Shown piece by piece: positions 29,520-59,488 of a stretch of DNA of 64,000 nucleotides. The notes beneath the pieces are model-generated. The model was not told where the DNA came from. It saw only the letters and a program-made list of their open reading frames with translations, and did not search any database. Position numbers and translations under genes: made by a program. Origin of the DNA: an uncultured Clostridia bacterium. Lineage in GTDB: Bacteria > Bacillota > Clostridia > Christensenellales > Borkfalkiaceae. Numbering within the stretch: position 1 is the stretch's first letter; every line of letters begins with the position of its first letter. The stretch covers positions 1 to 64,000 of the forward strand of contig CANQMX010000005.1 in NCBI GenBank assembly GCA_947625095.1, in the 5' to 3' direction.

Positions 29520-30833
29520 TTATTCCTCCACGGTATGGCCGATGAGATCGTAGGTCTCAGCGCGGTCGATATGTACCTTGTAAATTTTGCCCTCTTCCGC
29601 CTTGGGCGCGGTGAAAAAGGTGTTGCCGTCTATCTCGTATGCCTGAAAATACGCCCTGCCGACGAAGCACTGCCTCTCCTCATCGATGCCGTCGCAGAGG
29701 ACGGAGAGCGTCCTTCCCGCAAATTTTTGCAGTTTGGCGGCGGAGATCTGCGCCTGCCTTTCGTAGAGTTCGCGCACCCACCGCTTCTTGGTGGAGGGGT
29801 GCACCTGCCCAGAAAGGTTGTAGGCGGGCGTATCCGGCTCGCGCGAGTAGGCAAAAAAGCCGCAGTTTTCGAGGTTCGCCTCCTCCAAAAAGGAGAGGAG
29901 CGCCTTGTGTTCCTCCTCCGTCTCCCCGGGGAAGCCCGCGATGAAGGTGGAGCGGATGGCGATCTCGGGCACTGCCGCGCGCAGTTTTTTGAAGAGGGTC
30001 AAATACTCCGCCCGCGAACCCCGCCGCCCCATGCGCTTCAAGATGCTGTCCTCCGAATGTTGGAGGGGGATATCGAGGTACTTCAAAAGTTTGGGGTTGT
30101 TTTTCAGTTCGGCGATGAGGTCGTCCCCGATGGCCTCGGGATAGCAGTAGAGGAGGCGGATATGGCGGATATTTTCGAGGGCGGAGAGGCGGCGGATGAG
30201 TACCGCGAATAAATTTTTGCCGCCGTCCTCGCCGTAGCGCGTCGTATCCTGCGCGACGAGCGTGAGTTCCTGCGTCTCGCCCAAGGAGCGCGCCTCCTCC
30301 ACGAGTTCCTCCATGGGGTAGGAAACGTACCTGCCGCGGATCTTGGGAATGAGGCAATAGGTGCAGTGATTGAAGCAGCCGTCAGCAATTTTCAGATATT
30401 TCAAATGCGGCGGCGTGGAGACATAGCGCTTTGCGCCCACCGCCCTGCCGCAGCCGACGGCATTGACGCGCTCCCCCGCATACGCCCGCTCCAAGGCGGG
30501 GAAGAGTTCGGAGACGTCCTCTACGCCCAAAAAGACGTCGGCCTCCGTGAGCGCGGGGTAGAGTTCCTTGATAAATTTTTGGGGGAGGCAGCCCGTGACG
30601 ACGATCTTTTCAAGCGCGCCGCCCCTTTCAGCGTTTGCCTCCAACACGGCGTTTATGGATTCCTCGCGCGCCGCGCTCAAAAAGGCGCACGTGTTGACGA
30701 CGATGATTTGCGCCCTTCGGATATCGTCCGTGATGGTGCAGCCGCGGCGGACGATCTCGCCCATGAGCCGCTCCGCGTCCACGCGGTTCTTATCGCAGCC
30801 GAGCGAGATGACGCCGAATATCTTGTTGAGCAT
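29520..30833 (-). CDS. rimO: Ribosomal protein uS12 methylthiotransferase RimO
   Basis: 437 aa. The N-terminal UPF0004 domain has GCDKNRVDAE and later cluster Cys residues (VNTCAFL, VVTGCLPQ). The radical-SAM domain has CFNHCTYCLIPKIRG (CxxxCxxC), and a TRAM domain closes the protein (about 375-437). It thiomethylates an aspartate of ribosomal protein uS12 using two Fe-S clusters. NNPKLLKYLDIPLQHS and GFPGETEEE are typical RimO blocks, distinguishing it from MiaB. The ATG shares one base with the ftsK stop. Confidence 0.96.
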   Translation of the reverse strand: MLNKIFGVISLGCDKNRVDAERLMGEIVRRGCTITDDIRRAQIIVVNTCAFLSAAREESINAVLEANAERGGALEKIVVTGCLPQKFIKELYPALTEADVFLGVEDVSELFPALERAYAGERVNAVGCGRAVGAKRYVSTPPHLKYLKIADGCFNHCTYCLIPKIRGRYVSYPMEELVEEARSLGETQELTLVAQDTTRYGEDGGKNLFAVLIRRLSALENIRHIRLLYCYPEAIGDDLIAELKNNPKLLKYLDIPLQHSEDSILKRMGRRGSRAEYLTLFKKLRAAVPEIAIRSTFIAGFPGETEEEHKALLSFLEEANLENCGFFAYSREPDTPAYNLSGQVHPSTKKRWVRELYERQAQISAAKLQKFAGRTLSVLCDGIDEERQCFVGRAYFQAYEIDGNTFFTAPKAEEGKIYKVHIDRAETYDLIGHTVEE

Positions 30834-33800
30834 CAGTTGATCTTCCCGTATTTCGCTTCGAATTCTTCCTGCGTCATGAGCACTTCGCGCGCCTTCGCCT
30901 TGCCGTCAAAGGGCGAGATGTAGCCCATTGCCTCCATCCACTCGATGATCTTCCCCGCGTGGTTGTATCCCACCGAGCACTTGCGCTGGATGAGGGAGAT
31001 GGAGGCCTGCCCGAGTTTTACGACGATGCCGAGCGCGCGGATATACTGCGGGTTGGCGGAGCCGTCGTCCTCGTCCATGCCGCCCTCGCCCGCCGACGAG
31101 CCGGGGCTGTTGATGAACGACGCGACGTTTTCATCGAAGTACGCCTCGTTGTTGGCCTTGATATCGTCGACGACGGCCTGCACCTCGGCAGAGCTCAAAA
31201 ACGCGCCCTGCACGCGCAGGCAGTTGAACATCCCCTCCGTGCGGAAGAGCATATCGCCGTTGCCGAGCAGTTTTTCCGCGCCCGATTCATCGAGAATGGT
31301 GCGGGAGTCCACTTCCTGGATAACGCGGAAGGCAAGCCGCGTGGGTAGATTCCCCTTGATGACGCCCGTGATGACGTCCACCGACGGGCGCTGGGTGGCG
31401 ATGACAAGGTGGATGCCCGCGGCGCGCGCCTTTTGGGCGAGGCGCTGGATGCGCTCTTCGATGTCCTTCTTGGCGACCGCCATGAGGTCGGCGAGCTCAT
31501 CGACGACGATGACGATCTTGGGAAGTTTGGCCTCGTCCTCGGTGCGGACGCCGTTGTATTCATCCACGTTGCGCACGGTGATGTGCTGTTCGCGCGTCTT
31601 TTGCTCGAAGAGGCGATACCTCCGCTCCATCTCCTCGATCGCCCATTTGAGCGCCGTCACCGCCTTCTGCGCGTCGGCGATGATCTCGTTGATCATGAGG
31701 TGGGGAAGCCCGTCGAATACGGCGAACTCCACCTTTTTGGGGTCGATGAGGATGAGGCGCAAGTCCTCGGGCGAGTACTTGCAGATGAGGCTGATGAGCA
31801 TCGCGTTGAGGCACACCGACTTGCCCGAACCCGTAGAACCGGCGACGAGCAGGTGCTTCATCTTGGCGATGTTGCCGCAGACGTTCTTGTTTTCGACGTC
31901 CTTCCCGATGACGAACATCAGAGAACCCTCTTTGGCGTTCTGGTATTCCTCCGCCTGCAATACCGACTTGATGCCGACGGTGGCGCGGTGGGCGTTGGGA
32001 ACTTCGATGGAGATCGCGCCCGACATATTGTTGGCGTACATATTGACGCCGTCGCGCGCGTGCAGGCGCATGGCGATCTCGGCGTCGCGCTTGATGACCG
32101 TCCCCACCGTGATGTTGCGGGGGATATCGATATCGTACCGCGTGACGGCGGGGCCTATCGTCACCTTGACGACTTCGGCGTCCACCTTGAAGCCCGCGAG
32201 CGTATCGACGATGATGGAGGTATTGCGTTCGATCTCGTCCTCCTGCATGGTGACGGTATCGTTGTATTCGGTGAAATTTGCCGTGCTCGGCCGCACATAC
32301 TCGCGGTAGATGTGCCTTGCGGGAGGCGCGGGCGGTGCGGGCGGCTCTTCCGCGGCGGCGGGCACACGCGGCGGTGCGGAGAAATCCTCCTCGCGCAGTT
32401 CGCGGCGTGCTCTGTCGCGCGCAGGCATGGCGGGCGTCGGCTCTTCGCGGTAGTCCCCTCCGTCGAAATCGTCGTCATCGAAGAGTTCGGCCACCCCCTT
32501 GCGCATATCCGCGTCGAACACGCGGCTCTCGGGCGGGGGCGCGTCCTCCTCGGCGGCAGGCTCTTGCGGCGTTTCCTCGCGGGGCGGTTCGCGGCGGTCG
32601 AAGGGCAGCGGCCGTTCGACGTGCGTGCGCTCCTCGAAGGAACGCGAGAAGAGGCTGCGGAACTGCGATTCCCTGCTCTCCTCCTCCGGCTCTTCCTGCG
32701 GAGGCTCTGCCTTGGGCGGCTCGGGCGCGGCGGGGCGGGGACTCTCCGTCCTCTCCTCGGGCGCGAAGCGCGAGGGCGCAGCTCCCTCCTCGGGCGCAAA
32801 GCGGGAAGACGCGGGGGTCTCGGGCGCGAAGCGCGACGGGGGCGCGACCCTCTCCTCGGGTGCAAAGCGCGACGGGGGCGCGACCCTCTCCTCGGGTGCA
32901 AAGCGCGAGGGCGCAGCTCCCTCCTCGGGCGCAAAGCGCGAGGGCGCGGGGGTCTCGGGCGCGGGCGTATCGTACACGTTGGGCTGGGAGGAGAAGGTCT
33001 CCTGCTCCACGTCGTGCGCGTAGAAATCGCGGGCGCGCTCCTGCGGCTGTTCGGGCGCGCGGTAGGAGGGTGTTTGCGTGTAATTTGCGTCGTAATCCTC
33101 GTCCACGGGGTAGGAATAGCCGTCCGAGGGGCGGGGGCGTTCCTCCATGACCTTGCGCGGGAAGGCGGGACGCTCCCCCTCCGCCTGCGCGGCATATTGC
33201 GCGCCGTAGCCCCCCTCTTCGGGCGGGGTCGCGGGGCGGGGTTGCTGCTGTTGCTGCTGCGCATAGGGCGGGGTCGCGCCGCGGTGGTTGAAGTACGAAT
33301 CCTTATCGTAGATGAGATTGGTGCGGTAGTTCATTGCGGGGTCGTCGCCGAAGAGAAGTTCCCTGCCGCGCGCCTGCGCGTCATTGGCGCGGGAATACTG
33401 CGCGGGGGGCGCGGGATAGGCGGGCGGCGCGTAGGCGTAGGTGTCCGCTCCCGCCGAGGCACGGGGCGCACCCGGGAGTTCGGAAAAGGAGATGGCGCCG
33501 GGGTAGGGACGCGTGCCCTCCGTGCGGGGCGCGGTCTCGGGCGCGGGCGTCGGCGCGGGCGCACGCTTGCGGGCGCGAGATTTTGAGAAGGAGATGTACT
33601 TCCCGAGCGGCGTCAAAAGCAGCACGAGATAGAGGGCGAGCGCGGTGAGAAGGGCAAAGATGACGTATGCGCCCGCGTCGGTGAGCACGGCGCAGATGGG
33701 ATAGTCGATGACGCCGAAAATAACGCCGCCGCCCGTGCCGTTTGCCGCGCTCTCCGCTGCCGCATTCCAGCACGCCGCGAGGTATTCGCCGTAGGTGAGG

Positions 33801-34141
33801 CCGCGATAGGGCGCGGTCGCCGTGTGCACGATGAAAAATACCGCAACGGTGAGCAGCCCCAGGGAAAGCACCCAGCGGCGGGAGAGAATTTTCTTGCCGA
33901 TGACAAGCCCGAAGGAGAGCACGACGACGGCGAGGAGGAGCGGATAGGCCATAAACCCGAACACGCCCACAAAGAACGCCGTGATGGCGCGCCCCACATC
34001 GCCGAACAGGAACGGCCCCGTCACGATGATGAGAAAGGCGATCGCCGAAAACAGGAGAAGGGTCATGCCCACCGTCTCCCGAGAGATCACCGATAATTTT
34101 TTCTCCTTTTGCTTGTCCTCTCCGCGCCCAAACCCGTTCAC
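30833..34141 (-). CDS. ftsK: FtsK/SpoIIIE DNA translocase with a long repeat-containing linker
   Basis: 1102 aa from a GTG at 34141, chosen because GGAGG sits 7 nt upstream; the ATGs at 34174 and 34165 lie in a hairpin without a ribosome site. Four N-terminal membrane helices (about 20-175) are followed by a ~430-residue Pro/Glu/Arg linker containing seven or so SRFAPEE-type repeats. The motor has AGSTGSGKSVCLNAML, DPKKVEFAVF, VDELADLMAV and ATQRPSVDVITGVIKGN. A C-terminal winged-helix gamma domain (KLGQASISLIQRKCSVGYNHA) recognises KOPS/SRS sequences. It pumps chromosomal DNA through the division or sporulation septum. It heads the operon. Confidence 0.96.
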   Translation of the reverse strand: MNGFGRGEDKQKEKKLSVISRETVGMTLLLFSAIAFLIIVTGPFLFGDVGRAITAFFVGVFGFMAYPLLLAVVVLSFGLVIGKKILSRRWVLSLGLLTVAVFFIVHTATAPYRGLTYGEYLAACWNAAAESAANGTGGGVIFGVIDYPICAVLTDAGAYVIFALLTALALYLVLLLTPLGKYISFSKSRARKRAPAPTPAPETAPRTEGTRPYPGAISFSELPGAPRASAGADTYAYAPPAYPAPPAQYSRANDAQARGRELLFGDDPAMNYRTNLIYDKDSYFNHRGATPPYAQQQQQQPRPATPPEEGGYGAQYAAQAEGERPAFPRKVMEERPRPSDGYSYPVDEDYDANYTQTPSYRAPEQPQERARDFYAHDVEQETFSSQPNVYDTPAPETPAPSRFAPEEGAAPSRFAPEERVAPPSRFAPEERVAPPSRFAPETPASSRFAPEEGAAPSRFAPEERTESPRPAAPEPPKAEPPQEEPEEESRESQFRSLFSRSFEERTHVERPLPFDRREPPREETPQEPAAEEDAPPPESRVFDADMRKGVAELFDDDDFDGGDYREEPTPAMPARDRARRELREEDFSAPPRVPAAAEEPPAPPAPPARHIYREYVRPSTANFTEYNDTVTMQEDEIERNTSIIVDTLAGFKVDAEVVKVTIGPAVTRYDIDIPRNITVGTVIKRDAEIAMRLHARDGVNMYANNMSGAISIEVPNAHRATVGIKSVLQAEEYQNAKEGSLMFVIGKDVENKNVCGNIAKMKHLLVAGSTGSGKSVCLNAMLISLICKYSPEDLRLILIDPKKVEFAVFDGLPHLMINEIIADAQKAVTALKWAIEEMERRYRLFEQKTREQHITVRNVDEYNGVRTEDEAKLPKIVIVVDELADLMAVAKKDIEERIQRLAQKARAAGIHLVIATQRPSVDVITGVIKGNLPTRLAFRVIQEVDSRTILDESGAEKLLGNGDMLFRTEGMFNCLRVQGAFLSSAEVQAVVDDIKANNEAYFDENVASFINSPGSSAGEGGMDEDDGSANPQYIRALGIVVKLGQASISLIQRKCSVGYNHAGKIIEWMEAMGYISPFDGKAKAREVLMTQEEFEAKYGKIN
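32750..32960. repeat. In-gene repeats encoding SRFAPEE in the ftsK linker
   Basis: Tandem and near-tandem units, with plus-strand signature CTCGGGCGCGAAGCGCGA or a close variant, encode SRFAPEE(G/R) blocks in the FtsK linker. Unit length varies between about 33 and 45 bp, and one unit pair is almost identical. This is likely a length-variable site. Confidence 0.8.
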
Positions 34142-34155
34142 GATATTTCCTCCGT

Positions 34156-34174
34156 ATGTCCCCATAGGGGACAT
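34156..34174 (-). promoter_or_regulatory. Hairpin in the ftsK leader next to the Shine-Dalgarno site
   Basis: ATGTCCCC, loop of 3, GGGGACAT: a perfect 8-bp stem ending 3 nt before the ribosome site at 34153-34149. It encloses the upstream ATG codons, supporting the GTG start, and may tune translation. Confidence 0.6.
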
Positions 34175-34389: not shown

Positions 34390-35307
34390 TTATTTTATGC
34401 GCTTTCCCGTCGCCTTGATCTCCTTGGCGGCGAAAAGTTCGTCGCGGGTGAGCGCGGGGACTTCGTCGCTCTTGACGGGAACGACCTTGCCCTGCGTCAG
34501 TCCCCCGTTTTCCGCAAGGCGGGCGAGGAGATATTTTGCGTATTTTATCTTGCGGGGGGAATCAACCTTGAAGAGCATGGGCGTTGCCGCAAAGCGCTTC
34601 ATGGAGGAGACGTCCTTTCCGCGATACTTTGTGCCCGCGTATTCCGCGGGGTCGAGGGCGAGCGCGAGGCACAACTTTTTGCCCTTGAATAGGATGGCGG
34701 CGGCGCGCTGCCTGCCGAGGCTGACGTTCTGCTGGCGGCGGCCGGAGCGGATGCGCAACTTTTTGTAACTTGCGATCTCGTCGACGAGTTCGGAATAGTA
34801 CCCCTTGACGTCGTCCGCCGCGAGTACGAGGCGCGCCAGAAAGGAATAGGAATAGCGCACGCTGTACACTTCCGCGTCGTGCTCTTTGCCCTCGACGCCG
34901 AGCGCCGCGCGGAGGGCGGGGCTCATATCCCTTACGGCGAGCGATTCGCCCGCAACGTCCCCCTCTGCGGGCGCGGCGGCGACGGCGATCTCTTCCGCCT
35001 CTTCCTCCTGCGCCGTCTCTCGCGCGATTTGTGCGGGCGCTTCCGCGATTTCCGCCGTCTCTTCCGCAACTTCTGCGGCCTCAACGACCTCTTCCGCAGG
35101 CTTGGCCTCTTCCGCAGCCTCAACAGCCTCCTCAACGGGCTTCGCAACCTCTTCAACGGGCTTCGCAACTTCCGCAGGCTTCGCGGTCTCTTCTATGGGC
35201 GCGGCGGGTTTTGTCCCCCTCTTTTTCAGCGCGTACCACACGGCGATTGCGCCTGCGAGCACGGCGACTGCCGCGATGACGATGGCAACGATTGCGCCGG
35301 TATTCAT
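34390..35307 (-). CDS. Membrane-anchored paralogue of the uL15-fusion protein
   Basis: 305 aa. An N-terminal transmembrane helix (residues about 5-26) is followed by a basic KKRG stop-transfer. Residues 35-115 are a Glu/Ala/Val-rich linker with near-repeats of AKPVEEV type. Residues 152-268 are homologous by eye to residues 84-197 of the protein at 36-1085 (YY-x-EL, LFKGKKLCLALALDP versus IFRRKTLCLYFALSP). A short Lys-rich tail replaces the uL15-like domain. The topology is short N-out with a long cytoplasmic domain. The function is unknown. The promoter at 35347-35375 and GGGGGA ribosome site support a single-gene unit. Confidence 0.75.
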   Translation of the reverse strand: MNTGAIVAIVIAAVAVLAGAIAVWYALKKRGTKPAAPIEETAKPAEVAKPVEEVAKPVEEAVEAAEEAKPAEEVVEAAEVAEETAEIAEAPAQIARETAQEEEAEEIAVAAAPAEGDVAGESLAVRDMSPALRAALGVEGKEHDAEVYSVRYSYSFLARLVLAADDVKGYYSELVDEIASYKKLRIRSGRRQQNVSLGRQRAAAILFKGKKLCLALALDPAEYAGTKYRGKDVSSMKRFAATPMLFKVDSPRKIKYAKYLLARLAENGGLTQGKVVPVKSDEVPALTRDELFAAKEIKATGKRIK

Positions 35308-35425: not shown

Positions 35426-36184
35426 CTATACCATGCTCTCGAGGATGAGTTTATCGGCGACGAGGGCGATAAATTCGCTGTTGGTGGGTTTTTCCGTGCC
35501 GATGTAGACGCGCGCGCCGAAGATGGCGTTGACGGCGTCGATGCGCCCCCTGTTCCACGCGACCTCGATGGCGTGGCGGATGGCGCGCTCCACCTTGCTC
35601 GCGGAAGTGTTGAACCGCTCGCCGATGATGGGGTACAGCCCCTTTGTGACGTTGTTGATGATGTGGGGGTCGTTGACCGCCATCTTGATGCCCTCGCGCA
35701 GGTAGTTGTACCCCTTGATGTGCGGCGGGATGCCGATGGAGATGAAGATATTGGAGATGCGCTCGTCGAGGGAGGCGGGACGGCGGCGTTCATACTTTTC
35801 CCGCCCCGCGGCGTATTCCGGCCCCGCGGTGAGTTCCATGGCGCGCTCGCCCACGATCTCCGCCGAGACGGGCTTCATGAAGTAGTACCGCGCCCCGAGC
35901 GCGATGGTGCGGTTGATGATGGCGTCGTCCGAGAAGTTGCCGAGCACGATGAAATCCGTCTTTCTGCCGCTGCGCTTTGCCTCTTCCAGCACGGTGAAGC
36001 CGTCCATGTTTTTGAGAAAGAGGCTGATGACGGCAACGTTGGGGGAGAACTTTTCGAGCAGTTTTATCCCCTCTTCGCCGTCGCCCGAAACGCCGCAGAC
36101 CTCGCAGTCCTTCTGCGTGGAAAAATACCTTGCAAGTTCGCCCGCAAACGCCTCGTTGCTTTCCAAAATCAAAATTCGTTTCAT
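35426..36184 (-). CDS. spo0A: Spo0A response regulator with a degenerate receiver
   Basis: 252 aa. The C-terminal domain (about 140-252) is classic Spo0A: PPHIKGYNYLREGI, LYPIIGERFNTSASKVERAI, RHAIEVAWNRG and KPTNSEFIALVADKL. The receiver (1-120) has lost its phosphorylation chemistry. The acidic pair expected near residues 8-9 is Glu-Ser (LILESNEAF), the phosphoacceptor position reads Ser54 (VAVISLFLKNMDGF, where Bacillus has VLVLDIIMPHLDGL), and the switch Thr is Gly (IVLGNFSDD). The Lys of MKPVS remains. It is therefore predicted to be insensitive to the normal phosphorelay. It lies alone with its own promoter, not beside spoIVB as is usual. Confidence 0.95.
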   Translation of the reverse strand: MKRILILESNEAFAGELARYFSTQKDCEVCGVSGDGEEGIKLLEKFSPNVAVISLFLKNMDGFTVLEEAKRSGRKTDFIVLGNFSDDAIINRTIALGARYYFMKPVSAEIVGERAMELTAGPEYAAGREKYERRRPASLDERISNIFISIGIPPHIKGYNYLREGIKMAVNDPHIINNVTKGLYPIIGERFNTSASKVERAIRHAIEVAWNRGRIDAVNAIFGARVYIGTEKPTNSEFIALVADKLILESMV

Positions 36185-36216: not shown

Positions 36217-36245
36217 ATTATAATATACGAATTTGGATTTGTAAA
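36217..36245 (-). promoter_or_regulatory. spo0A promoter
   Basis: Minus strand TTTACA (36245-36240), 17-nt spacer, TATAAT (36222-36217); leader about 27 nt. Direct repeats at 36256-36287 lie just upstream of the -35. Confidence 0.75.
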
Positions 36246-36255
36246 GTCATTTTTG

Positions 36256-36287
36256 TACAAAATTCAAAAATTATTTTACAAAATTCA
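36256..36287. promoter_or_regulatory. Direct repeat TACAAAATTCA x2 upstream of spo0A
   Basis: Two identical 11-bp copies at 36256-36266 and 36277-36287, exactly 21 bp apart (two helical turns), 11 bp upstream of the -35 box. This geometry suits activator or self-regulation by a DNA-binding protein. The sequence is not a 0A box (TGTCGAA). Confidence 0.5.
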
Positions 36288-36328
36288 TCGATTTTTGTAA
36301 AAAATTGTCGGAAGCGAATTTTCTTGTC

Positions 36329-50585: not shown

Positions 50586-50906
50586 TTATATGTTTTCCGT
50601 TATGTTTTCCGATTCCGAACAAAATATTTGGTCTTTTTCTTCCGAAGCGGCTTCTTCGGCGGGAGCGGCTTCCTCGGCGGGCGGGGCGGTTGCCTCCTCT
50701 GCGGGAGCAGTCTCTTCGACGGGAGCGGTCTCCTCGGCGGGAGCGGTCTCCTCTGCGGCGGTCGCCGCCTGCCCGCGCGGACATCTGCTCACATATACAA
50801 GGAAGATCCACAGCGCGACGTCGGCGATCAGCACCGCGGCTGCCAGCGCGACGAGCACCATGAGGGCTATAAACTGCGAATTATCGACGTGGATAAGCAA
50901 ATTCAT
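50586..50906 (-). CDS. Small single-pass membrane protein with acidic Ala/Glu/Pro tail
   Basis: 106 aa. One transmembrane helix (about 11-40) is followed by YVSRCPRG and a 50-residue low-complexity cytoplasmic tail built from EETAPAEE/EETAPVEE units, then a polar end. The start overlaps the stop of the giant surface protein gene by 4 bp (ATGA), so translation is coupled and the two proteins probably work together, for example as a membrane partner or export helper. That role is inference. No family recognised. Confidence 0.7.
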   Translation of the reverse strand: MNLLIHVDNSQFIALMVLVALAAAVLIADVALWIFLVYVSRCPRGQAATAAEETAPAEETAPVEETAPAEEATAPPAEEAAPAEEAASEEKDQIFCSESENITENI

Positions 50907-53900
50907 CTCGATCTCCTCTTCTTTTTCTCCTTGATGGCGCGGATCTCAAGCGCCATGACGGCGACCCCGAGCACGAGCGCCGCGGCGGCGAGGCCGATGG
51001 GCGTCATGAGCGGCGTGTTCGCATAGGTGAAGGCAATCGTGGAGAGGCCGTCCATCGTAATGACGATGTAGTCCCCCTCCACCGTATAATCGATCGCGAC
51101 GATCTCCATATTCTCCCCTTCGCCCCGCACGGAAAAAACGCCAAACCCGTTTCCGCGCAACTCCTCGGGAATGAGCAGCCTTACCGTCACGCGTTCGGAG
51201 GTCGCCACCCGCGCGCCGTCCTTATAGAAATCAATATCGTATGCCTTTGCAAGCCCGCCGCCGAACGCCCCGCCCGCGACCATGACGCTCCCCAAAGCCT
51301 TTGCGCTCTGCCGCATACGCAGTTCCAACGTGGGGTCAAGCCCCGCCGCGCTTTCCACGATGACGTCGGGCGCTTCGCCCTGCTCCCCTTCGAGGTGCGA
51401 CTGCATCTGCACGCGCAATATGGTGAGCGTCGCGCTGCGCGAAGGGATCTCCATATAGTTGTCGAAGTCGCCCTCAAAGTACGCGACGACCGCATAGACG
51501 CCCGGCTCCGTCCTGCCGTTGCCCGTGTAATGCGCCCAAACGCCCGCGGGAAGCCCCGTCGCCGCCAGGCTGTGCGCCGAGCCGTCCCACCTGAACACGC
51601 CGTCCGCAAAGTCCGCCTCGCCCATATCGTAGACGGCGCGCCCGATCGTGAAGGCGTATTCAAAGGCGGCAAGCGTGTAATTTCCGCTCTCCGCGCCCAC
51701 GAGCGCGACGGTCACGGTGTAGTCGCCCGCGAGCGTGGGAAGTTCTCCGCCCGCAAACGCCGCGCCGCCGTTCGCAACGCCCGCATAGGAGAGGATGGAA
51801 ATTTCCACCTCGTCGTCCCACAGGACGCCCTCCGCAAGGCGCGCCGCGGGGTCGTTCGCGCCGCCATAGACGAGGCCGTCGAACGCGCCGAAGTCGGCCG
51901 CAAGCGTGCGCGGGGACACGGTGTATTCCGCGGAAACGAGCGTGATGAGATAATTGGGATTTTCCCACACGACCTGCACCGCATACCCGCCCGCGGCCAT
52001 GCGCGCATCGAGCAAAACGCCGCCGCTCCCCTTCCGCAGGGAATAGGAAAGCCCGAGGTCCGCAAACGTCTCGCCGCGCTTGCCGTACCAAGCCCCCTCA
52101 ACGCCGCCCGAGCGAACGGCGGAGAGCGTCACCTGCTCCGCAAGCGGCAGAGGCGTTGCGCCGTATGTGTGCCCCTCGAACGAGAGGGTCAGATCGATCT
52201 TCCGCGGAACGATCTCGAAGTCGGGCTGCACATCGCCGTACCAGCGGAAGCGGATATAGTGGCTCTCCTCGCCGTCTTTGAGATAGCGGACTCCGATGCG
52301 GTATACGCCCACGGGCAGGCGGTCTCCGTTGTCCGTTTCGCCGAGTTCGTGCGTCACACCCAATTCGTCGATGAGATAGAAGGTGAAATAGCGTTTGTTG
52401 AGCCGCTCCCCCAACATGGTACCCTCGTCGCCCGCCGCGCCCGCCACGACTTCGCGGATGTGCGCATACAATCTATCGCGCAAGACGTCCTGCGTGTGGG
52501 CGGCGTCGCCGTATTCCACGTTGTGGAAATGTCCGTCCACGATGCTCTCATCCAGACGGATCGTGATCTCCTCATGGTAGATGTGCACGGTATAATACCC
52601 GTAGTAGGTGTTGTGGTTCGCGCCCTCGATCCTGATATAGACGCAGTAGCCCTTGGGCGTATTCACATACATATCGGCGTTCGCCGCGTGCCACATATCC
52701 GCGTGTTCGCCCCGCTTCAACGCCTTGAAGAACGCCACGATCGCGCCTTCGTCGTGCGCGCTCTCCGCGTGCTCGGTCACGATATAGGAGACCTTCACCA
52801 CGTCGCCGCCGGGAACGGTGAACGGGAACTCCGCGCTGCTCTGGTCGGGCAGGGCGAGGTCGTGCCGCTCGCCGCCCGTGTGATACAAAAATTCCCGATC
52901 TTTGAGCGCAGCGAATTTTTCATTCTCCTCGATATCCGCGGCGGAGATCGTGAAAGTAACCGTCAATTCATCCTGTGCGCCGCCCGCCCAGCAGTAATTT
53001 ATGAGGTCTCTGAGCGCCACCCTCATGGGATATACGCCCGCATTTCTGGCGGTCAGCGAGGCGCTCTTTCGATCGACGCCGTCGCCCGAAGCCGACATCG
53101 TCGCAAAATCAAAGCCGCTCGCCTCAAACAGGTGCTCTTCGCCGTCGTAGACGATGGTGCGATCGCCCGTGGGCCTTTCAAGTTCGACCCTTGCAATGGT
53201 GTACGAAAAACTTTCCCGCCCGAGCGTATAGTTGCGCTTTGCCCTGCCCTTGAGTTCAAGGCGAACGTCATACGTCCCCGCATCTTTCGGCAGAAGGCGT
53301 TGGTCGACGCCGTCATATTTTACGCCGCCGTAAAACACGTCGTAATCCTCGCCACGGCGCAGCGTCTCGCCCGCGACGCCTTCCAGCGTTTCGAGAAGTT
53401 CGCGCGCCGCCCCGCTGTACTGCCCGCCCGAAGGCGTCTCGTAGACGATATTTGCGCGCGTCACCGTGTACCGCGCGCCCTCCGGCTCTCCCACAATGCG
53501 ATAGTCGCCGCTCTCCCAAACGATGACAATGGTATATTCGCCCGCCTCCATGGCGCTGAAATATTCTGCCGCCGCGCCGCTGCCCGATCGGAAGCGGTAG
53601 GAAAAGTCGAGCGCGTCGTCGGGGTTTCCGTACCAAACTCCGCCGCCCACGCGCACCGCGCTCGCCGCGATCTCGCCGTGCCGCCCGTCGCCATAGACGT
53701 TGGTGCGCGCGCCCGTGAGGGTCACCTTTATCTCGCGCGGCGTCACCGTGACGTCGCCCGCCGTGTAGAAAACGTCGTAATTTCCGACCGCCCTGCGCTC
53801 CGCGCGCACCGTTGCGCCCCGCTCGCCCGCGTGCGTGCCGCCCTGCGCGTACCCGTCAAAGACGTATTCCCCCGCGGCCAGAACGGCGGCAGTCATCGCC

Positions 53901-56900
53901 TCCGCGTCCTCCCACGGGGTAAGACCGCCCGCGATTTTCGCGCCGACGTTCCCCCGCCCGAGCGCGTCTCCATACACGACTTCGGCGAAGAGGTCTACGG
54001 TGAGCGGCCGCGGCGTTACCGTATATATCGCGCCGCCGACTTGAACTATCGTATAATTTTCGTTGGCGCAAGTGACGGCAACGGAGTACTGCCCAACGTC
54101 CATCCTCTCGTCGAGCGAAAGCCCCGTCTGCCCGTCGCGCGCAAAGGTGAAGCCAAGCCCCAGCCCCTCTACGGTGTCCTTCCCGAACAGCCCCTCTTCG
54201 TTCACCGTGTTGTTCTCGGGCGCGTTCTTGCAGGCGACGCGCGGAAGGATGCTCCCGAACTCGCTTTCCCCGTAGACGTGCGTCCTGCTCCCGCCGAGGG
54301 TGAGGATAAGGGCGCGCGGGCTTACCGTCATGGTGGGCGCGCTGCCGCCCTCCCACACAAATTCGATGTAGCCGCTCTCCTCGTCCGCCGCGTTCGGCTT
54401 GGCATAGCGCACGTGCAGGGCATATGTCGCGTTCGCGGCGAGGGGGTCGCCGATCGCATACTCCCTTCCGCCCGCCGCGTCCGTGAAGTAGAATTGGAAG
54501 TAGTCCTTTTCCGCCTTGAACTGCGCCTTTTTGTTCTCGGAGAGGGTGCCGTCCTCCGCGGTCGCCGTTATGCTCTCGATCCGCTCAAACACCAGATCGA
54601 ACAGCGAACTGTACGTGTGCGGCACGTCGCCGTATTCGCACGTAAAATCGAGGCCGCCCTCCGCCATCTTGATGATGAGCCGTTCGTGGTAGATGTGCAG
54701 GGTGTAATACCCGTAATAGGTCGCATGGTTGGGGGCTTTCGCCTCGAAGAACACGCAGTACCAGCCCGGCTCTCTTGCGGGCGCGGCGCGGTCGGAATAT
54801 CCAACGCCTTCAAGTTCCTCCGCACCCGCGCAGAGAAGGGCAAGATAGCCCTCTATCTTCTTCCTGAACTCCTCGTGCAGCGCGCCGCCCTCCGCGTGCG
54901 AGAGAACGATGTACCGCAGCGCCACTTTATTTACGATGCCGTTGTCGTTGCCTCGGAGGATGAGCGGGAAGGCGGCATCGCCCTGCGCGGGCAGTTCAAG
55001 CGACTGCGCCGCCCTATCGTCGGCGGAATACAGCGCGCTGCGCGATTTTTCAAAGCCCCGCGTGAAGTCCTCCGCGATCGCCGCTGGCAGGATCTCGTAT
55101 CCGAATTGCCGCTCGCCCACGATGGTATAGTTCGCGGCGGTCTGGGAGGAGGAGAGCGCCACCTCGGCAAGATATCTGCCTGCGTCGCAGGGGAGCAAGC
55201 CGCCGAACGCCGCGCCGTCGGGCGAGTACTTCACCGTATAATCGTCGCCAAGCGCGAGCGCGTCCCCATAGTACAGATTGCCGAAGGTGACGCTCACGCC
55301 CTGCCCGCGACCCGTGTAAACCGTGCGTACCATGTCCGCCTTCGCGGTGATCTCGCGCCGCTCGATGACGAGCGTGCACCCCATGTACGAGATGGCGTAG
55401 TTCTCGGTCATGCCCCTCGCGTTTACCGTGATATCCCTGCGCAACGCGGACATACCCGCCTTGTAACCGCCGAAGTCAAAGGTGGCCGCCGCCTTGGCCG
55501 CCCCTTCGATATCCGCCCTTTTGTCGCCGTTTTTCAGTTGGTTTTCGTCCGCCACCGTAACGCGCACGTTGTCCGCGCCGACCTCCTCGCCGTAGGTGAC
55601 GCGCGCCGCGAGGAGCACGGTGAGGCTTGCCCTCTCCACGCGGTACGCTGCGCTCTCCGCCTCAACGATGTAGTTGTCGTCCGCCCAAACAAGTTCGACG
55701 GTGTAATCGCCTGCGGGCGCGCCCGCGTCCAGCGCGCGGCTTCCGCCCGCCCATTTGAGCGCGTACTCCGCGCCCCGTTCCAGCGCCTCCGCGTCGGCAG
55801 CACTCCCGTACCAAGCCGCGCCGATCACTTCATTGCCCTCGCCGTCCACGCGCACCGCACGCAATATGGGTCGCGCGGGAGTATCGCCGTAGACGTGTTG
55901 CAGCGCGCCGCCGAGCGTCACCCTTATCCTGCGCGGCGTGACGTTGAGATTGCCCTCCGCGCTCTCATAGAGGACGGCGTAGTTGGGGATCTCCCCCTGC
56001 GCGGCGGCCGTCATTCGATACCTTCCCACCTTGGTTGCGCCCGCCGCATAGCCGCCGAAGTCGAAGGAGGCTGCCGCCCGCGCCGCCGCAAGCACTTCCG
56101 CCGCGTCGTCGCCCCCAACAAGCCCCGTCCTCACCGCAAGCCGCACGTTTTCCGCGCCGATCTCGTCGCCGTAGACGACCTCCGCCGTCACCGTCACGGC
56201 GAGCGGCTTTCTCTCAACGGTGTAGGCCGTGCCGTCCGCGCCCACGATTTGGTAATTTCTTGCAAGCGCGCTGCCGCCCGCCCATTGCACGATGACGGTG
56301 TACTCGCCCGCCGCCATGCGCGCGTCATATTCCCTTCCGCCGTCCGTGCCTTTTTGGAAGGTGTATGCAAGTTGCCCGTTCAGCCCCGCTCTGTCCGCGT
56401 CCGTCGCGTACCAATTTCCCGCGCTGTCCGCACGCGTCGCGTCCGCCTCGATCTCCCCGTGCACGGCGTCGCCGTACGTGTTCGTGCGCGCCCCTTTCAG
56501 CGTCACGCGGATCTTGCGTTTTTCCACGTCTACCTTCCCGTCGATGAAGGTCACCTTGTAGTTATCGAGTTCCACGGCGTCGGCGCTCACCATGGCGTCC
56601 ATTGCGCCCGCGCCCGTCACGCCCGCCGTGTAGTTGAATTTGAACGCCGCGCCCACCTTCTCCTTTGCCGCCCGTTCGATGTCCGCCCGCCTGTCGTCAT
56701 ATTGCAGCCCGTCCGCGATCGTCACGGTCACATTGCTCTCGTCCATCTCGTCGCCGTAGACGACGCGCGCGGAGAGGCTCGCCCGCAGGGGCGCGCGGTT
56801 GACTGTAAATTCCCTTGTCGCCTCGATGCCCTCGTAGTTCTCGTTGCCCTCTACGCTCGCCCGCACATAGTACGTGCCCGCGGCGGTGGGCGCAGTGCCC

Positions 56901-59407
56901 GTAAAGCTGCCCTCGCCGTCCGCCGAATAGGTGAACGTCACTTTGCCGAAGTAGGGCGTCGCGGTGGGCGCGTTTGCGCTTTCGCCGTACGTCCAACTCT
57001 GTATGGCGAGGGCTTTCTCCCAGCCGTTCTTCGCGCGGACGATCGCATACTCCCGCGTCTCGCCCGCGATGTCGTAATTTGCGGCCTTCTCCCTGTCGCC
57101 CTCCGCGACCGTCGCCCGAAAGGCATACCTGCCCACGTTCAAAAATTCGCCGCCCGGCGAGGTCATCTCCACGTCGAATATGATCGTCCCGTCCGTTCCC
57201 TCGCCCTTTGCGCTCGCCCGCGGCGTTGCAATGCCGCCGTTCGCGTAGGAATATGTGTACTGCACATCGCTGCCCGACCACTCCACCACGAGGCGCGCCC
57301 TGCCGATCTCATACTCCCTTTCGAGGTTTCCCGTCAGTTCGTAGTTGTGCCCGTCGGCGTCGGTAAGCGCGGCCGTGAAGGTGTACTTCCCCGCATTGCG
57401 GAATTGCCCGCCGCCCTTGATCGCCACGGCGAGCACGGCTCTCCCGCCGTCCGCCGTCGCCGCGGGGTACTCCTCCTCGGGAATTTCCTCGCCGCGATAG
57501 GTGTACGTCCTGCCCTCCCACGCCGCGGTCACGCGCTTTTTGGAAACGGTCACGGCAAATTTTGCCGTACCCATGTCCAAGGTGTAGTTCTTGCTCCGCG
57601 CGCCGTCCGCGGGGTCGAACGCCGCCGCAAGGGTGTAGTCCCCCGCCACCGTGAACGCGTTATCCGCGCCCCACGCGGGGTGCGCAAATACGGTGACGAC
57701 GAGGGTGAACCTCTCCCCGTTCACGCCGTCCGCAAACGCCTCGGGCAGAGCGAGCGCCGCGCCCGAATATTCGTATTCCCCCGCCGTCCACGTCACGCCC
57801 ACTTTCAGCGGCTCTACTTTGAGCGTGCCGCGCCTGTAATCGAATTCGTAGTTGTCGGAGGCAAGCCCCTGCGGCACAATGTCGTAGTCGCCCGCGTTCG
57901 CAAACTTTTTATAGCCGCCGAACGTGTATTCAAGCGCCCCGCCGAGGGCGTCCTCCCCCTCGCCGTTTACAAAGCCCGCGTACTCCACGCCGCCGTCCGC
58001 GGCCTCGTCGCCGTAGCAGATCGTCCTGTCCTTCGCCGTCACGGTGAGTTTCGCCCTTTCTATCGTGAAGCCCCTCTCCCCGTCCGCCGCCAGCGTGTAG
58101 TTGTCCGCGCCCGTGCCTTCAAGCGCCGCCGCCTTCACCGTATACGTTCCCGCGAGCGCGGGCTTTTCCGTCCCCTCGGGGAGGGCAACGTTGCCGTTCG
58201 TCGTCCCGCCGAAATGCAATAGCGCCGTCACCGCGTCGCCGTTTACGATCCCCTCGAGGGTCGCCGAAAACGTGCCGACGTTCCCATACGTCAAATCTTC
58301 GGGCAGGGCAATTTTCGCTTTCAATCCCCGCCGCGCAACGGTGTACGCGTCCCTTCCTTCATATCTGATATCCCACACCTTATAATTTTCGTTCCCGCAC
58401 TTCACGCCGACGGCATACTCCCCCGCGGGCGTCGTCGCGCTCGGCGCAAACGCCAAGCCCTGCGCCGAATAATAGGAAAGTTTGAGAATGGAAATATCGT
58501 CCTTATCCCCCACGTACCAACGGTTTTCGTGAAACGCCTTTACGCTCACCCATTCCCCGGGGTCATCGCCGTACGTCCCCTCGCGAAAGGTCAGCGTCAG
58601 AGCGATCTCGCGCGGGAGAATGGTGAGTTTGCACCCCTCAAATACAACGGTCTGGTTGCCGAGTTCAAGCGGTTCGGCGGTCACGTCAAACCTTCCCGAC
58701 TCCGCAACTTCCGCCCCCACGGTATACCCGCCGAAATCAAATTTTATCTCTTGGTTTTCCCTCGCTTTCTCCAACTTTTCGAGAACGTTCTCGTCCGCCC
58801 CCGAAAAGACCATTTTCGCGTCGTAAATCTCGTCGCCGTATTCCACCGTCGCGCTCTCGATCTTGATCGTCGATATTCCGTTCGTGATTTGAAATTCCAC
58901 ATACGCCGTGGCCGGAGGGTCTGCCGTATCCTCAAGCACAAACATTTCTACACGATAATAGCCCCTCGCAACAGCCGGCCCCATGCTCCACGTATAGTCC
59001 GAAGGATCGTCAAGACTATACCAATAATCGATTATTAATTCCCCGGGGAATTCCTCTGCGCCCTCGATCTTCACCGAAACTTCAAACGCCTCGCCCGTGT
59101 AGGGAACTTGCGCGGGTGCGTCCAGCGTGGCGGTTACCGTCCTTGCGCCGTCCCGCGCTTCGTCATGGGTGGAGGAGGTGCACGTCGCCGTGAGAACAGC
59201 CCCCTCCGCGCTGTATTTCCACTTATCGGTGTGCGCAGAACTTACCGCCGTGCTCTCCGCTTCGCTCGCCACCGTGCTCCATTCGGCCGCCGCGCTCTCC
59301 GCCTGCGCGCCCCTTGCGCCGACCGCGGCGACCGATGCCCCCATCGCCGCGCACGCCATCATCGCAAAGGCAAGTCCCATTATGAAAAATTTACGGTTCC
59401 TATTCAT
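50903..59407 (-). CDS. Giant MBG-repeat cell-surface protein
   Basis: 2834 aa from the ATG at 59407. A signal peptide (about 1-35, ending ARGAQAES) is followed by more than twenty Ig-like MBG-type units, recognised by V-x-YGD-x-x-x-x-NV and by R-x-I-x-VTL-x-G-x-x-x-x-YGD alternating with GEYTV-type and YTVxRxPL linkers. Two long non-MBG modules (about 180 residues each) interrupt the array, and both contain YYGYYTxHIYHE. A C-terminal transmembrane helix with IKEKKKRRSR anchors it; there is no LPxTG. MBG arrays build long stalks in adhesins. Gene codon use matches the host. It has its own promoter at 59525-59554 and a 0A box. Confidence 0.88.
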   Translation of the reverse strand: MNRNRKFFIMGLAFAMMACAAMGASVAAVGARGAQAESAAAEWSTVASEAESTAVSSAHTDKWKYSAEGAVLTATCTSSTHDEARDGARTVTATLDAPAQVPYTGEAFEVSVKIEGAEEFPGELIIDYWYSLDDPSDYTWSMGPAVARGYYRVEMFVLEDTADPPATAYVEFQITNGISTIKIESATVEYGDEIYDAKMVFSGADENVLEKLEKARENQEIKFDFGGYTVGAEVAESGRFDVTAEPLELGNQTVVFEGCKLTILPREIALTLTFREGTYGDDPGEWVSVKAFHENRWYVGDKDDISILKLSYYSAQGLAFAPSATTPAGEYAVGVKCGNENYKVWDIRYEGRDAYTVARRGLKAKIALPEDLTYGNVGTFSATLEGIVNGDAVTALLHFGGTTNGNVALPEGTEKPALAGTYTVKAAALEGTGADNYTLAADGERGFTIERAKLTVTAKDRTICYGDEAADGGVEYAGFVNGEGEDALGGALEYTFGGYKKFANAGDYDIVPQGLASDNYEFDYRRGTLKVEPLKVGVTWTAGEYEYSGAALALPEAFADGVNGERFTLVVTVFAHPAWGADNAFTVAGDYTLAAAFDPADGARSKNYTLDMGTAKFAVTVSKKRVTAAWEGRTYTYRGEEIPEEEYPAATADGGRAVLAVAIKGGGQFRNAGKYTFTAALTDADGHNYELTGNLEREYEIGRARLVVEWSGSDVQYTYSYANGGIATPRASAKGEGTDGTIIFDVEMTSPGGEFLNVGRYAFRATVAEGDREKAANYDIAGETREYAIVRAKNGWEKALAIQSWTYGESANAPTATPYFGKVTFTYSADGEGSFTGTAPTAAGTYYVRASVEGNENYEGIEATREFTVNRAPLRASLSARVVYGDEMDESNVTVTIADGLQYDDRRADIERAAKEKVGAAFKFNYTAGVTGAGAMDAMVSADAVELDNYKVTFIDGKVDVEKRKIRVTLKGARTNTYGDAVHGEIEADATRADSAGNWYATDADRAGLNGQLAYTFQKGTDGGREYDARMAAGEYTVIVQWAGGSALARNYQIVGADGTAYTVERKPLAVTVTAEVVYGDEIGAENVRLAVRTGLVGGDDAAEVLAAARAAASFDFGGYAAGATKVGRYRMTAAAQGEIPNYAVLYESAEGNLNVTPRRIRVTLGGALQHVYGDTPARPILRAVRVDGEGNEVIGAAWYGSAADAEALERGAEYALKWAGGSRALDAGAPAGDYTVELVWADDNYIVEAESAAYRVERASLTVLLAARVTYGEEVGADNVRVTVADENQLKNGDKRADIEGAAKAAATFDFGGYKAGMSALRRDITVNARGMTENYAISYMGCTLVIERREITAKADMVRTVYTGRGQGVSVTFGNLYYGDALALGDDYTVKYSPDGAAFGGLLPCDAGRYLAEVALSSSQTAANYTIVGERQFGYEILPAAIAEDFTRGFEKSRSALYSADDRAAQSLELPAQGDAAFPLILRGNDNGIVNKVALRYIVLSHAEGGALHEEFRKKIEGYLALLCAGAEELEGVGYSDRAAPAREPGWYCVFFEAKAPNHATYYGYYTLHIYHERLIIKMAEGGLDFTCEYGDVPHTYSSLFDLVFERIESITATAEDGTLSENKKAQFKAEKDYFQFYFTDAAGGREYAIGDPLAANATYALHVRYAKPNAADEESGYIEFVWEGGSAPTMTVSPRALILTLGGSRTHVYGESEFGSILPRVACKNAPENNTVNEEGLFGKDTVEGLGLGFTFARDGQTGLSLDERMDVGQYSVAVTCANENYTIVQVGGAIYTVTPRPLTVDLFAEVVYGDALGRGNVGAKIAGGLTPWEDAEAMTAAVLAAGEYVFDGYAQGGTHAGERGATVRAERRAVGNYDVFYTAGDVTVTPREIKVTLTGARTNVYGDGRHGEIAASAVRVGGGVWYGNPDDALDFSYRFRSGSGAAAEYFSAMEAGEYTIVIVWESGDYRIVGEPEGARYTVTRANIVYETPSGGQYSGAARELLETLEGVAGETLRRGEDYDVFYGGVKYDGVDQRLLPKDAGTYDVRLELKGRAKRNYTLGRESFSYTIARVELERPTGDRTIVYDGEEHLFEASGFDFATMSASGDGVDRKSASLTARNAGVYPMRVALRDLINYCWAGGAQDELTVTFTISAADIEENEKFAALKDREFLYHTGGERHDLALPDQSSAEFPFTVPGGDVVKVSYIVTEHAESAHDEGAIVAFFKALKRGEHADMWHAANADMYVNTPKGYCVYIRIEGANHNTYYGYYTVHIYHEEITIRLDESIVDGHFHNVEYGDAAHTQDVLRDRLYAHIREVVAGAAGDEGTMLGERLNKRYFTFYLIDELGVTHELGETDNGDRLPVGVYRIGVRYLKDGEESHYIRFRWYGDVQPDFEIVPRKIDLTLSFEGHTYGATPLPLAEQVTLSAVRSGGVEGAWYGKRGETFADLGLSYSLRKGSGGVLLDARMAAGGYAVQVVWENPNYLITLVSAEYTVSPRTLAADFGAFDGLVYGGANDPAARLAEGVLWDDEVEISILSYAGVANGGAAFAGGELPTLAGDYTVTVALVGAESGNYTLAAFEYAFTIGRAVYDMGEADFADGVFRWDGSAHSLAATGLPAGVWAHYTGNGRTEPGVYAVVAYFEGDFDNYMEIPSRSATLTILRVQMQSHLEGEQGEAPDVIVESAAGLDPTLELRMRQSAKALGSVMVAGGAFGGGLAKAYDIDFYKDGARVATSERVTVRLLIPEELRGNGFGVFSVRGEGENMEIVAIDYTVEGDYIVITMDGLSTIAFTYANTPLMTPIGLAAAALVLGVAVMALEIRAIKEKKKRRSR

Positions 59408-59488
59408 CGGCAGCCCTATTCCCCGTGTTTCATAAGATCTTCCGCCCGCGCCCTCATCTTCTGCCCCGACGGAACTCCCCACGCGAAC

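Follow-up and report, generated by a model that had tools for sequence, protein, structure and literature searches.

We found that a 64,000-nt stretch of DNA from an uncultured Clostridia bacterium (hereafter the window) encodes a Spo0A ortholog whose receiver domain has neither the phosphoacceptor Asp nor the acid that binds Mg directly nor the switch Ser/Thr, and that this state is fixed across the genus to which the window belongs, Candidatus Gallimonas. The DNA-binding half of the protein is intact. Loss of the phosphate site suggests that Spo0A is controlled in another way in these gut bacteria.

The spo0A reading frame lies on the minus strand at positions 35426 to 36184 and encodes 252 amino acids from an ATG start. 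At full length the protein scores 242.9 bits against the Spo0A equivalog model of NCBIfam, TIGR02875 (cut-off, 200), which all 29 scanned members of the genus also match. Its receiver domain (residues 1-118; minus strand, 35831 to 36184), delimited by Pfam, AlphaFold and Foldseek, scores 45.9 bits against Response_reg (PF00072; cut-off, 30.2). The Spo0A_C DNA-binding domain (PF08769; residues 143-246; minus strand, 35447 to 35758), placed by Pfam and by alignment to solved chains, scores 133.1 bits with 104 of 104 positions covered, and its VERAIRHAIEVAWNRGR stretch, which we take to hold the recognition helix, is invariant in 29/29 sequences. Foldseek returned the Spo0A output domains 1fc3 and 1lq1, to which the window output domain is 53-60% identical, as the top matches for the window protein; among receiver-only chains the best were those of Spo0A (1qmp and 5wq0). 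These scores bear out the Spo0A-like character that the initial annotation had given to the DNA-binding half, and by such comparisons the window protein is the organism's own Spo0A ortholog. A chance or misread reading frame is ruled out by the 252-aa ORF together with its full-length family match, and the plus-strand translation of 35426-36184 is not the Spo0A protein. A pseudogene is ruled out by omega values below 1 and by the existence of 51 different homologues, of which two are truncated by the end of a contig. The genome (1.78 Mb, 94.8% complete) contains a single Spo0A_C match, which is this gene; no second canonical Spo0A turned up within that level of completeness, and this reading was rejected. 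Elsewhere on the minus strand of the window, a 305-aa Ala/Glu-rich protein without a Pfam match (34390-35307) separates spo0A from an FtsK/SpoIIIE gene (30833-34174), and a 2859-aa ORF with MBG domains (50903-59482) perhaps encodes a giant surface protein.

Alignment to solved Spo0A receivers (1dz3/1qmp and 9phz) places Glu8-Ser9 at the Asp-Asp pair, Ser54 at the acceptor Asp and Gly82 at the switch Thr. The corresponding minus-strand codons are found at 36158..36163 (Glu8 and Ser9), 36023..36025 (Ser54, an AGC codon in the VAVISLF context) and 35939..35941 (Gly82), and the conserved Lys104 is encoded at 35873..35875. Ser54 and Gly82 therefore stand as the initial annotation had read them, the former confirmed by the ORF as well as by the alignment. 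Its claim that the acidic pair is lost holds for one position of the two. Ser9, which is non-acidic, replaces the second acid, the one said to bind Mg directly while the first acts through a water bridge (PMC12632262, in excerpt). Glu8 is not itself a loss, because 10 of 34 Spo0As from other families of the order (the outgroups) have Glu there. We call the domain a pseudo-receiver since it matches PF00072 while the acceptor Asp, the switch Ser/Thr and the second acid are missing. With all three gone, phosphorylation at the canonical site is not expected, and Asp phosphorylation of the window Spo0A is likely absent.

Next, we examined how widely these residues are shared. Candidatus Gallimonas belongs to the family Borkfalkiaceae. 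The genus set comprised 61 genomes including that of the window; 54 had a Spo0A_C match and 51 receivers were examined. Position 8 is Glu in 50 of these (gap in 1), position 9 is Ser in 49 (Gly in 1, gap in 1) and position 54 is Ser in 49 (Asn in 1, gap in 1), while Gly82 and Lys104 occur in 51/51. Leaving gaps aside, Ser54 and Ser9 are each present in 49/50, so the sharing across the clade that the initial annotation had proposed to check is borne out. By contrast, the 34 outgroup proteins have Asp54 (31) or Glu54 (3), and Ser/Thr82 in 34/34. A separate scan of named genomes with receiver alignment gave 86 relatives, and the best 80 of the 86 were taken. These are nearly all MAGs of uncultured Clostridia, with five Candidatus Gallimonas species and one Candidatus Borkfalkia among them; another candidate genus is placed in Borkfalkiaceae, order Christensenellales, in the accessible portion of PMC8035907. 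Among the best 80 of 86 loci, which overlap the genus set, position 54 is Ser in 75, Gly in 3, Asn in 1 and Asp in 1, and position 82 is Gly in 80. The receiver with Asp54 (L167) is of the Gallimonas type and keeps Ser9 and Gly82. A displaced phosphorylatable Asp, which the initial annotation had named as a finding that would count against it, was looked for and no acceptor was seen, since none of 56 genus rows has Asp at positions 50-58. As the residues are genus-wide, the receiver is under purifying selection and no Asp is found at 50-58, the pocket losses reflect more than chance.

The selective regime was estimated for each domain. In the six closest pairs omega was 0-0.13 for the receiver and 0-0.02 for the output domain; the window sequence and its nearest relative differ by a dN of 0.047 and a dS of 0.37. 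Over 281 pairs with dS below 1.2, where distant pairs are near saturation, median omega was 0.27 for the receiver and 0.08 for the output domain, and in some less close pairs the receiver value rose to about 0.49. These ratios point to purifying selection on the receiver; the loss of selection that would have weakened the initial annotation was not found. In the AlphaFold model the (beta-alpha)5 order of the receiver is complete, block pLDDT is 85-97 through residue 120, and the overall pTM of 0.51 makes domain placement unsure. The receiver is no relic: its fold and the selection on it have been retained. Thirteen of its residues are close to fixation in Gallimonas and seldom occur in outgroups: K2, S9, A14, L42, S54, F78, G82, N83, I89, I94, V106, A108 and V111. 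Four of these (S9, S54, G82 and N83) are at the old pocket; five (I89, I94, V106, A108 and V111) fall in alpha4-beta5-alpha5, the face that usually serves as the receiver dimer interface. This part is the least variable of the receiver (mean entropy, 0.67), followed by 0.75 for beta4 and 1.16-1.32 for the first three receiver segments. The K+2 position is Val in 56/56 genus rows, compared with Phe in 14/34 and Val in 6/34 outgroups. In the sections of PMC12632262 available, Phe at K+2 is tied to inactive CheY and Ala, Ile, Leu or Val to an active-like form, and the same shift is described in pseudo-receivers.

Outside the genus, the pocket was compared in 43 receivers from 14 sister genera, whose spread is very uneven (one genus, g41, contributes 15). 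Position 54 is Asp in 15, Gly in 12, Asn in 7, Ser in 5 and Glu in 4; position 9 is acidic in 11/43, and Asp54 combined with an acidic position 9 occurs in 3/43. The full five-residue pocket is present in one of the 43 (L207, genus g44) and in 25 of the 34 outgroup proteins, indicating some erosion across the order and much more in Borkfalkiaceae. Two proteins from genus g49, lacking only the first, water-bridged acid, might still be able to take phosphate. To judge from these alignments, degeneration of the pocket runs through the family in differing forms, more widely than the initial annotation supposed. A quick tree of 89 rows, from which the five pocket columns had been left out, requires 8 changes between presence and absence of Asp at position 54, so a single loss at the family root is unsupported; one outgroup row (o_L084) joins the family, which is therefore not strictly on one side of a branch. 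The pattern points to repeated losses of Asp54, followed by fixation of one state in Gallimonas.

Gene copy number was determined in a family sample of 201 genomes (completeness 90% or more; 15 genera), of which 187 had a Spo0A_C match and 156 a single one by hand count. Within the genus, two or three matches were present in 6 of the 56 matching genomes of this family scan, and a single locus in 53 of the 54 matching genomes of the 61-genome scan. Among the 31 multi-copy family genomes, extra copies were examined for three, two of which (G019 and G195) belong to the genus. Both copies are pseudo-receivers in G195 (L215 and L216) and in G232 (L182 and L198). In G019, contig 2 carries a second Spo0A_C regulator on the minus strand (L047:2983-3813) with a complete pocket (Glu-Asp, Asp, Thr, Lys). 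Its output domain is divergent, at about 46.4-48.9 bits for Spo0A_C. We regard L047 as a Spo0A-like paralogue, because it has the full pocket but reaches only 65.6 bits against TIGR02875 (cut-off, 200), and G019 also encodes a pseudo-receiver Spo0A (L046). Two further observations concern copy number and gene integrity: each of seven g49 genomes (G234-G240) has two or three Spo0A_C matches, and in one g50 genome (G244, L213) the Spo0A receiver and output domains are in separate frames, through either a broken gene or an assembly error.

On the input side, Clostridia are considered to supply Spo0A with phosphate through orphan kinases (PMC11210211, in part). The window's own genome has four receiver matches and eight HATPase_c (PF02518) matches. 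The eight proteins are two of GyrB type, MutL, Hsp90, SpoIIAB (placed before a sigma gene) and three kinases, each of which adjoins a response regulator with a GerE output, a Trans_reg_C output or none assigned. One of the three has HATPase_c alone and is called a kinase from that domain and its neighbouring regulator. No orphan kinase was found in this genome among PF02518 matches, a model that misses some kinase types, and HisKA matches numbered zero; elsewhere in the genus, HisKA kinases occur in 8 of the 10 genomes inspected, with 1-3 in each. A sharp tie between kinase number and pocket loss was rejected, since HisKA counts of 0-7 in 28 family genomes overlap those of 0-29 in 26 others. 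For this reason only the inventory of the window's own genome is used here.

We then examined binding sites for the output domain. The 0A box has the consensus TGNCGAA, which reads TTCGGCA on the other strand, and tandem boxes are spaced by 10 bp. With spoIIGA identified by its place before sigma-E and by ORF similarity rather than by a profile, an exact TTCGGCA is found at -66 to -78 of the gene in 9 of 10 loci (8 of 9 in the genus and one in a sister genus), and in 8 of 10 loci a 10-bp-spaced 0A-like pair upstream of it scores better than 98% of shuffles. The same spoIIG sequence doubles as a terminator-like hairpin in 8 of 10 loci (L301 has a weak one and L303 a different one); 0A boxes are therefore only one of two features that could account for its conservation. 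About 40-75 nt upstream of spoIIGA in L294-L300 and L302, the hairpin GGCATATTCCGACGGGATATGCC is followed by a T run and overlaps the 0A-like boxes; L295 and L297 show what looks like a compensatory change. Upstream of spoIIAA, no convincing 0A boxes were seen in nine loci (mean shuffle fraction, 0.46), no start having been found in the tenth, L286.

The region upstream of spo0A itself is organised in a recurrent way. In the window, all on the minus strand, a presumed promoter consists of the -10 hexamer TATAAT (36217..36222) and, across a 17-bp spacer, the -35 hexamer TTTACA (36240..36245). Within 170 nt these hexamers occur exactly in 47/49 and 49/49 genus upstreams, respectively. Just upstream of the -35 hexamer stand three TTTTGTACAAAA-like palindromes (36251..36304) with 21-bp spacing and 0, 2 and 1 mismatches, a candidate operator; farther upstream lies the 0A-box-like TCCGACA (36306..36312), one mismatch from TTCGACA. 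The pattern recurs in the genus: a TTTACA-N17-TATAAT-like promoter has, ahead of it, a 0A-like box and as many as three TTTTGTACAAAA palindromes at 21-bp spacing. A palindrome site with at most 2 mismatches is present in 51/53 genus, 29/43 sister-genus and 11/34 outgroup upstreams, and a pair spaced by 20-22 bp in 34/53, 7/43 and 0/34; shuffled upstreams gave 0.07-0.14 sites on average and no pairs. Exact TTCGRCA on either strand occurs in 37/53 genus, 24/43 sister-genus and 15/34 outgroup upstreams, against 4-7% of shuffles. Since the palindrome is found in sister genera and singly in 11/34 outgroups, it did not arise with pocket loss. We read the array as a putative operator of some other factor. 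Its use as a regulon marker was set aside: the own genome has 14 places at no more than 1 mismatch (3 for a reversed control), of which only the spo0A copy is perfect, and no regulator was identified.

We lean towards the reading that Gallimonas possesses a fixed, phosphorylation-independent Spo0A, competent as made and controlled by its amount, perhaps with the aid of a partner or ligand. Spo0A would dimerise and bind 0A boxes as made, without phosphate. Entry into the programme would be set by the amount of Spo0A through its own promoter, with its 0A-like box and 21-bp palindrome array, and it is plausible that this promoter is the place to which control has moved. A partner or ligand might help at the conserved alpha4-beta5-alpha5 face. 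In favour of this reading we count the orthology, the fixed residue losses, selection on a re-specialised receiver, Val at K+2, the kinase inventory of the own genome, the boxes at spoIIG and the spo0A promoter array. Against it weigh the spoIIA upstreams, the hairpin that overlaps the spoIIG boxes, the negative alpha/beta SASP result, the HisKA kinases of other genus genomes, the higher receiver omega of some pairs, the multi-copy genus genomes (with the full pocket of L047), Asp54 in L167, and the palindromes outside the genus. The initial annotation had likewise suggested a regulator working without phosphorylation. Loss of the Asp site, an intact output domain, fixation in the genus, selection and a single gene support that suggestion in part; activity of the protein is inferred, as are DNA binding, dimerisation and dose control.

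Several other explanations have to be weighed. Sporulation may be decaying in the family, with Spo0A persisting either to regulate the transition state or as a relic with a degenerated input side. This we consider unlikely, albeit a serious contender. Consistent with decay, alpha/beta SASP (PF00269) was found in none of 28 family genomes, 13 of 197 high-quality family genomes yielded no Spo0A_C match, different residues are lost in sister genera, and L213 is split between frames. In the available text of the survey PMC3533761, a genome without any SASP (BVAB3) stands in the section on non-sporogenous strains; the same text calls SASP genes easily lost, which speaks against decay. Gene content also opposes it. 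SpoIVA is matched in 58 of 61 genus genomes (over cut-off in 55). In a sporulation-gene panel of 30 genomes, 28 of them from the family, SpoVAC/AEB is over cut-off in 28/28 family genomes; B. subtilis is the one control in which it is. Matches to the sigma-F model and to SpoIIE occur in 30/30 panel genomes, including all 28 of the family; no sigma match reaches its curated cut-off and SpoIIE does so only in G061, outside the family. The sigma model is weak evidence alone because it also matches 11 of 14 control genomes. The ORF reading recovers the order spoIIAA-spoIIAB-sigma in ten genus loci. The low omega of the receiver is a further argument against a relic.

Alternatively, the pseudo-receiver could be a docking or sensing domain, in which a ligand or partner at the remodelled pocket or at the alpha4-beta5-alpha5 face switches Spo0A. 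Purifying selection on the receiver, the genus-specific fixed residues around the old pocket and the low variability of alpha4-beta5-alpha5 all agree with this. A role as dimer interface would, however, explain that conservation without a ligand, and no candidate partner was identified; in Rem and MirA a partner is reported to inhibit a regulator of the pseudo-receiver type (PMC12632262, in excerpt). We find switching of this kind unlikely, to much the same degree as decay. Phosphorylation could instead occur elsewhere: a Ser/Thr kinase might act on Ser54, say, or a displaced Asp might take the phosphate. Ser54 is nearly invariant, and position 54 is encoded by AGY in 54 of 55 sequences and by AAT in the other. 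A single step, however, separates AGY from Asn or Gly codons, which fits a path from Asp through Asn or Gly to Ser; this, the variety of residues at position 54 in sister genera (Gly, Asn, Glu, Asp or Ser) and the lack of Asp at 50-58 make phosphorylation elsewhere very unlikely. Switching by another Spo0A-like protein with an intact pocket, to which the window copy would be secondary, is the least credible explanation of all. The own genome is 94.8% complete and L047, described above for G019, shows that a full pocket can accompany Spo0A_C, but the low TIGR02875 score of L047, its co-occurrence with L046 and the single locus in nearly all matching genus genomes argue against it.

Taken more broadly, control of a phosphate-free Spo0A through a dose fixed by the promoter array may extend beyond Gallimonas. 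It is possible, and we propose it tentatively, that most of Borkfalkiaceae (15 genera sampled) gave up control of Spo0A by phosphorylation and kept much of the sporulation machinery. According to the accessible part of the review PMC11210211, all endospore formers initiate via Spo0A, activated by phosphorylation at a conserved aspartate. If true for Borkfalkiaceae, the proposal would contradict the rule that endospore formation starts through Spo0A~P. In a genus with SpoIVA and SpoVA genes the phosphate site is gone, its loss has become fixed and selection on the receiver persists; Gallimonas Spo0A is in effect a natural experiment on the roles of a receiver besides accepting phosphate, and sister genera offer many acceptor-position states (Ser, Gly, Asn, Glu and Asp). 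It also provides a testable case for the mechanism of bacterial pseudo-receivers, the working of which is called a mystery in PMC12632262 (in excerpt). Moreover, spo0A in a gut genome alone does not imply phosphate control. A MAG paper that covers Borkfalkiaceae uses spo0A as a sporulation marker, and its main text contains no phosphorylation or kinase terms (PMC11536998). A search for Borkfalkia, ceftriax- and spore gave no open-access paper. Pseudo-receivers are a known kind of domain; a Spo0A without the acceptor Asp did not appear among the open-access titles and abstract starts listed, a search outside which most subscription papers lie.

Compared with known systems, the Gallimonas protein shares with canonical Spo0A of B. 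subtilis and Clostridia (TIGR02875) the receiver and Spo0A_C architecture, a full-length equivalog score and 0A-like boxes at spoIIG and spo0A. It differs in lacking the acceptor Asp and the second acid, in having Gly for the switch Ser/Thr, and in that no orphan kinase is seen in the window's own genome. The atypical regulators ChxR, HP1043 and BldM likewise have receivers without phosphotransfer residues, and several aspartate-less receivers dimerise without phosphorylation (PMC12632262, PMC4395418, PMC3960148 and PMC4125116, each in excerpt). None of these is Spo0A, whereas here the sporulation regulator of one genus is concerned, with several residues at the Asp position in sister genera. 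Remodelled Spo0 pathways, which use either a phosphorelay or direct phosphorylation, also show that Spo0A input changes in evolution. In those systems, as described in the available part of PMC6136694, the kinases change and Spo0A is "remarkably conserved"; in Gallimonas it is Spo0A's own acceptor that has been lost.
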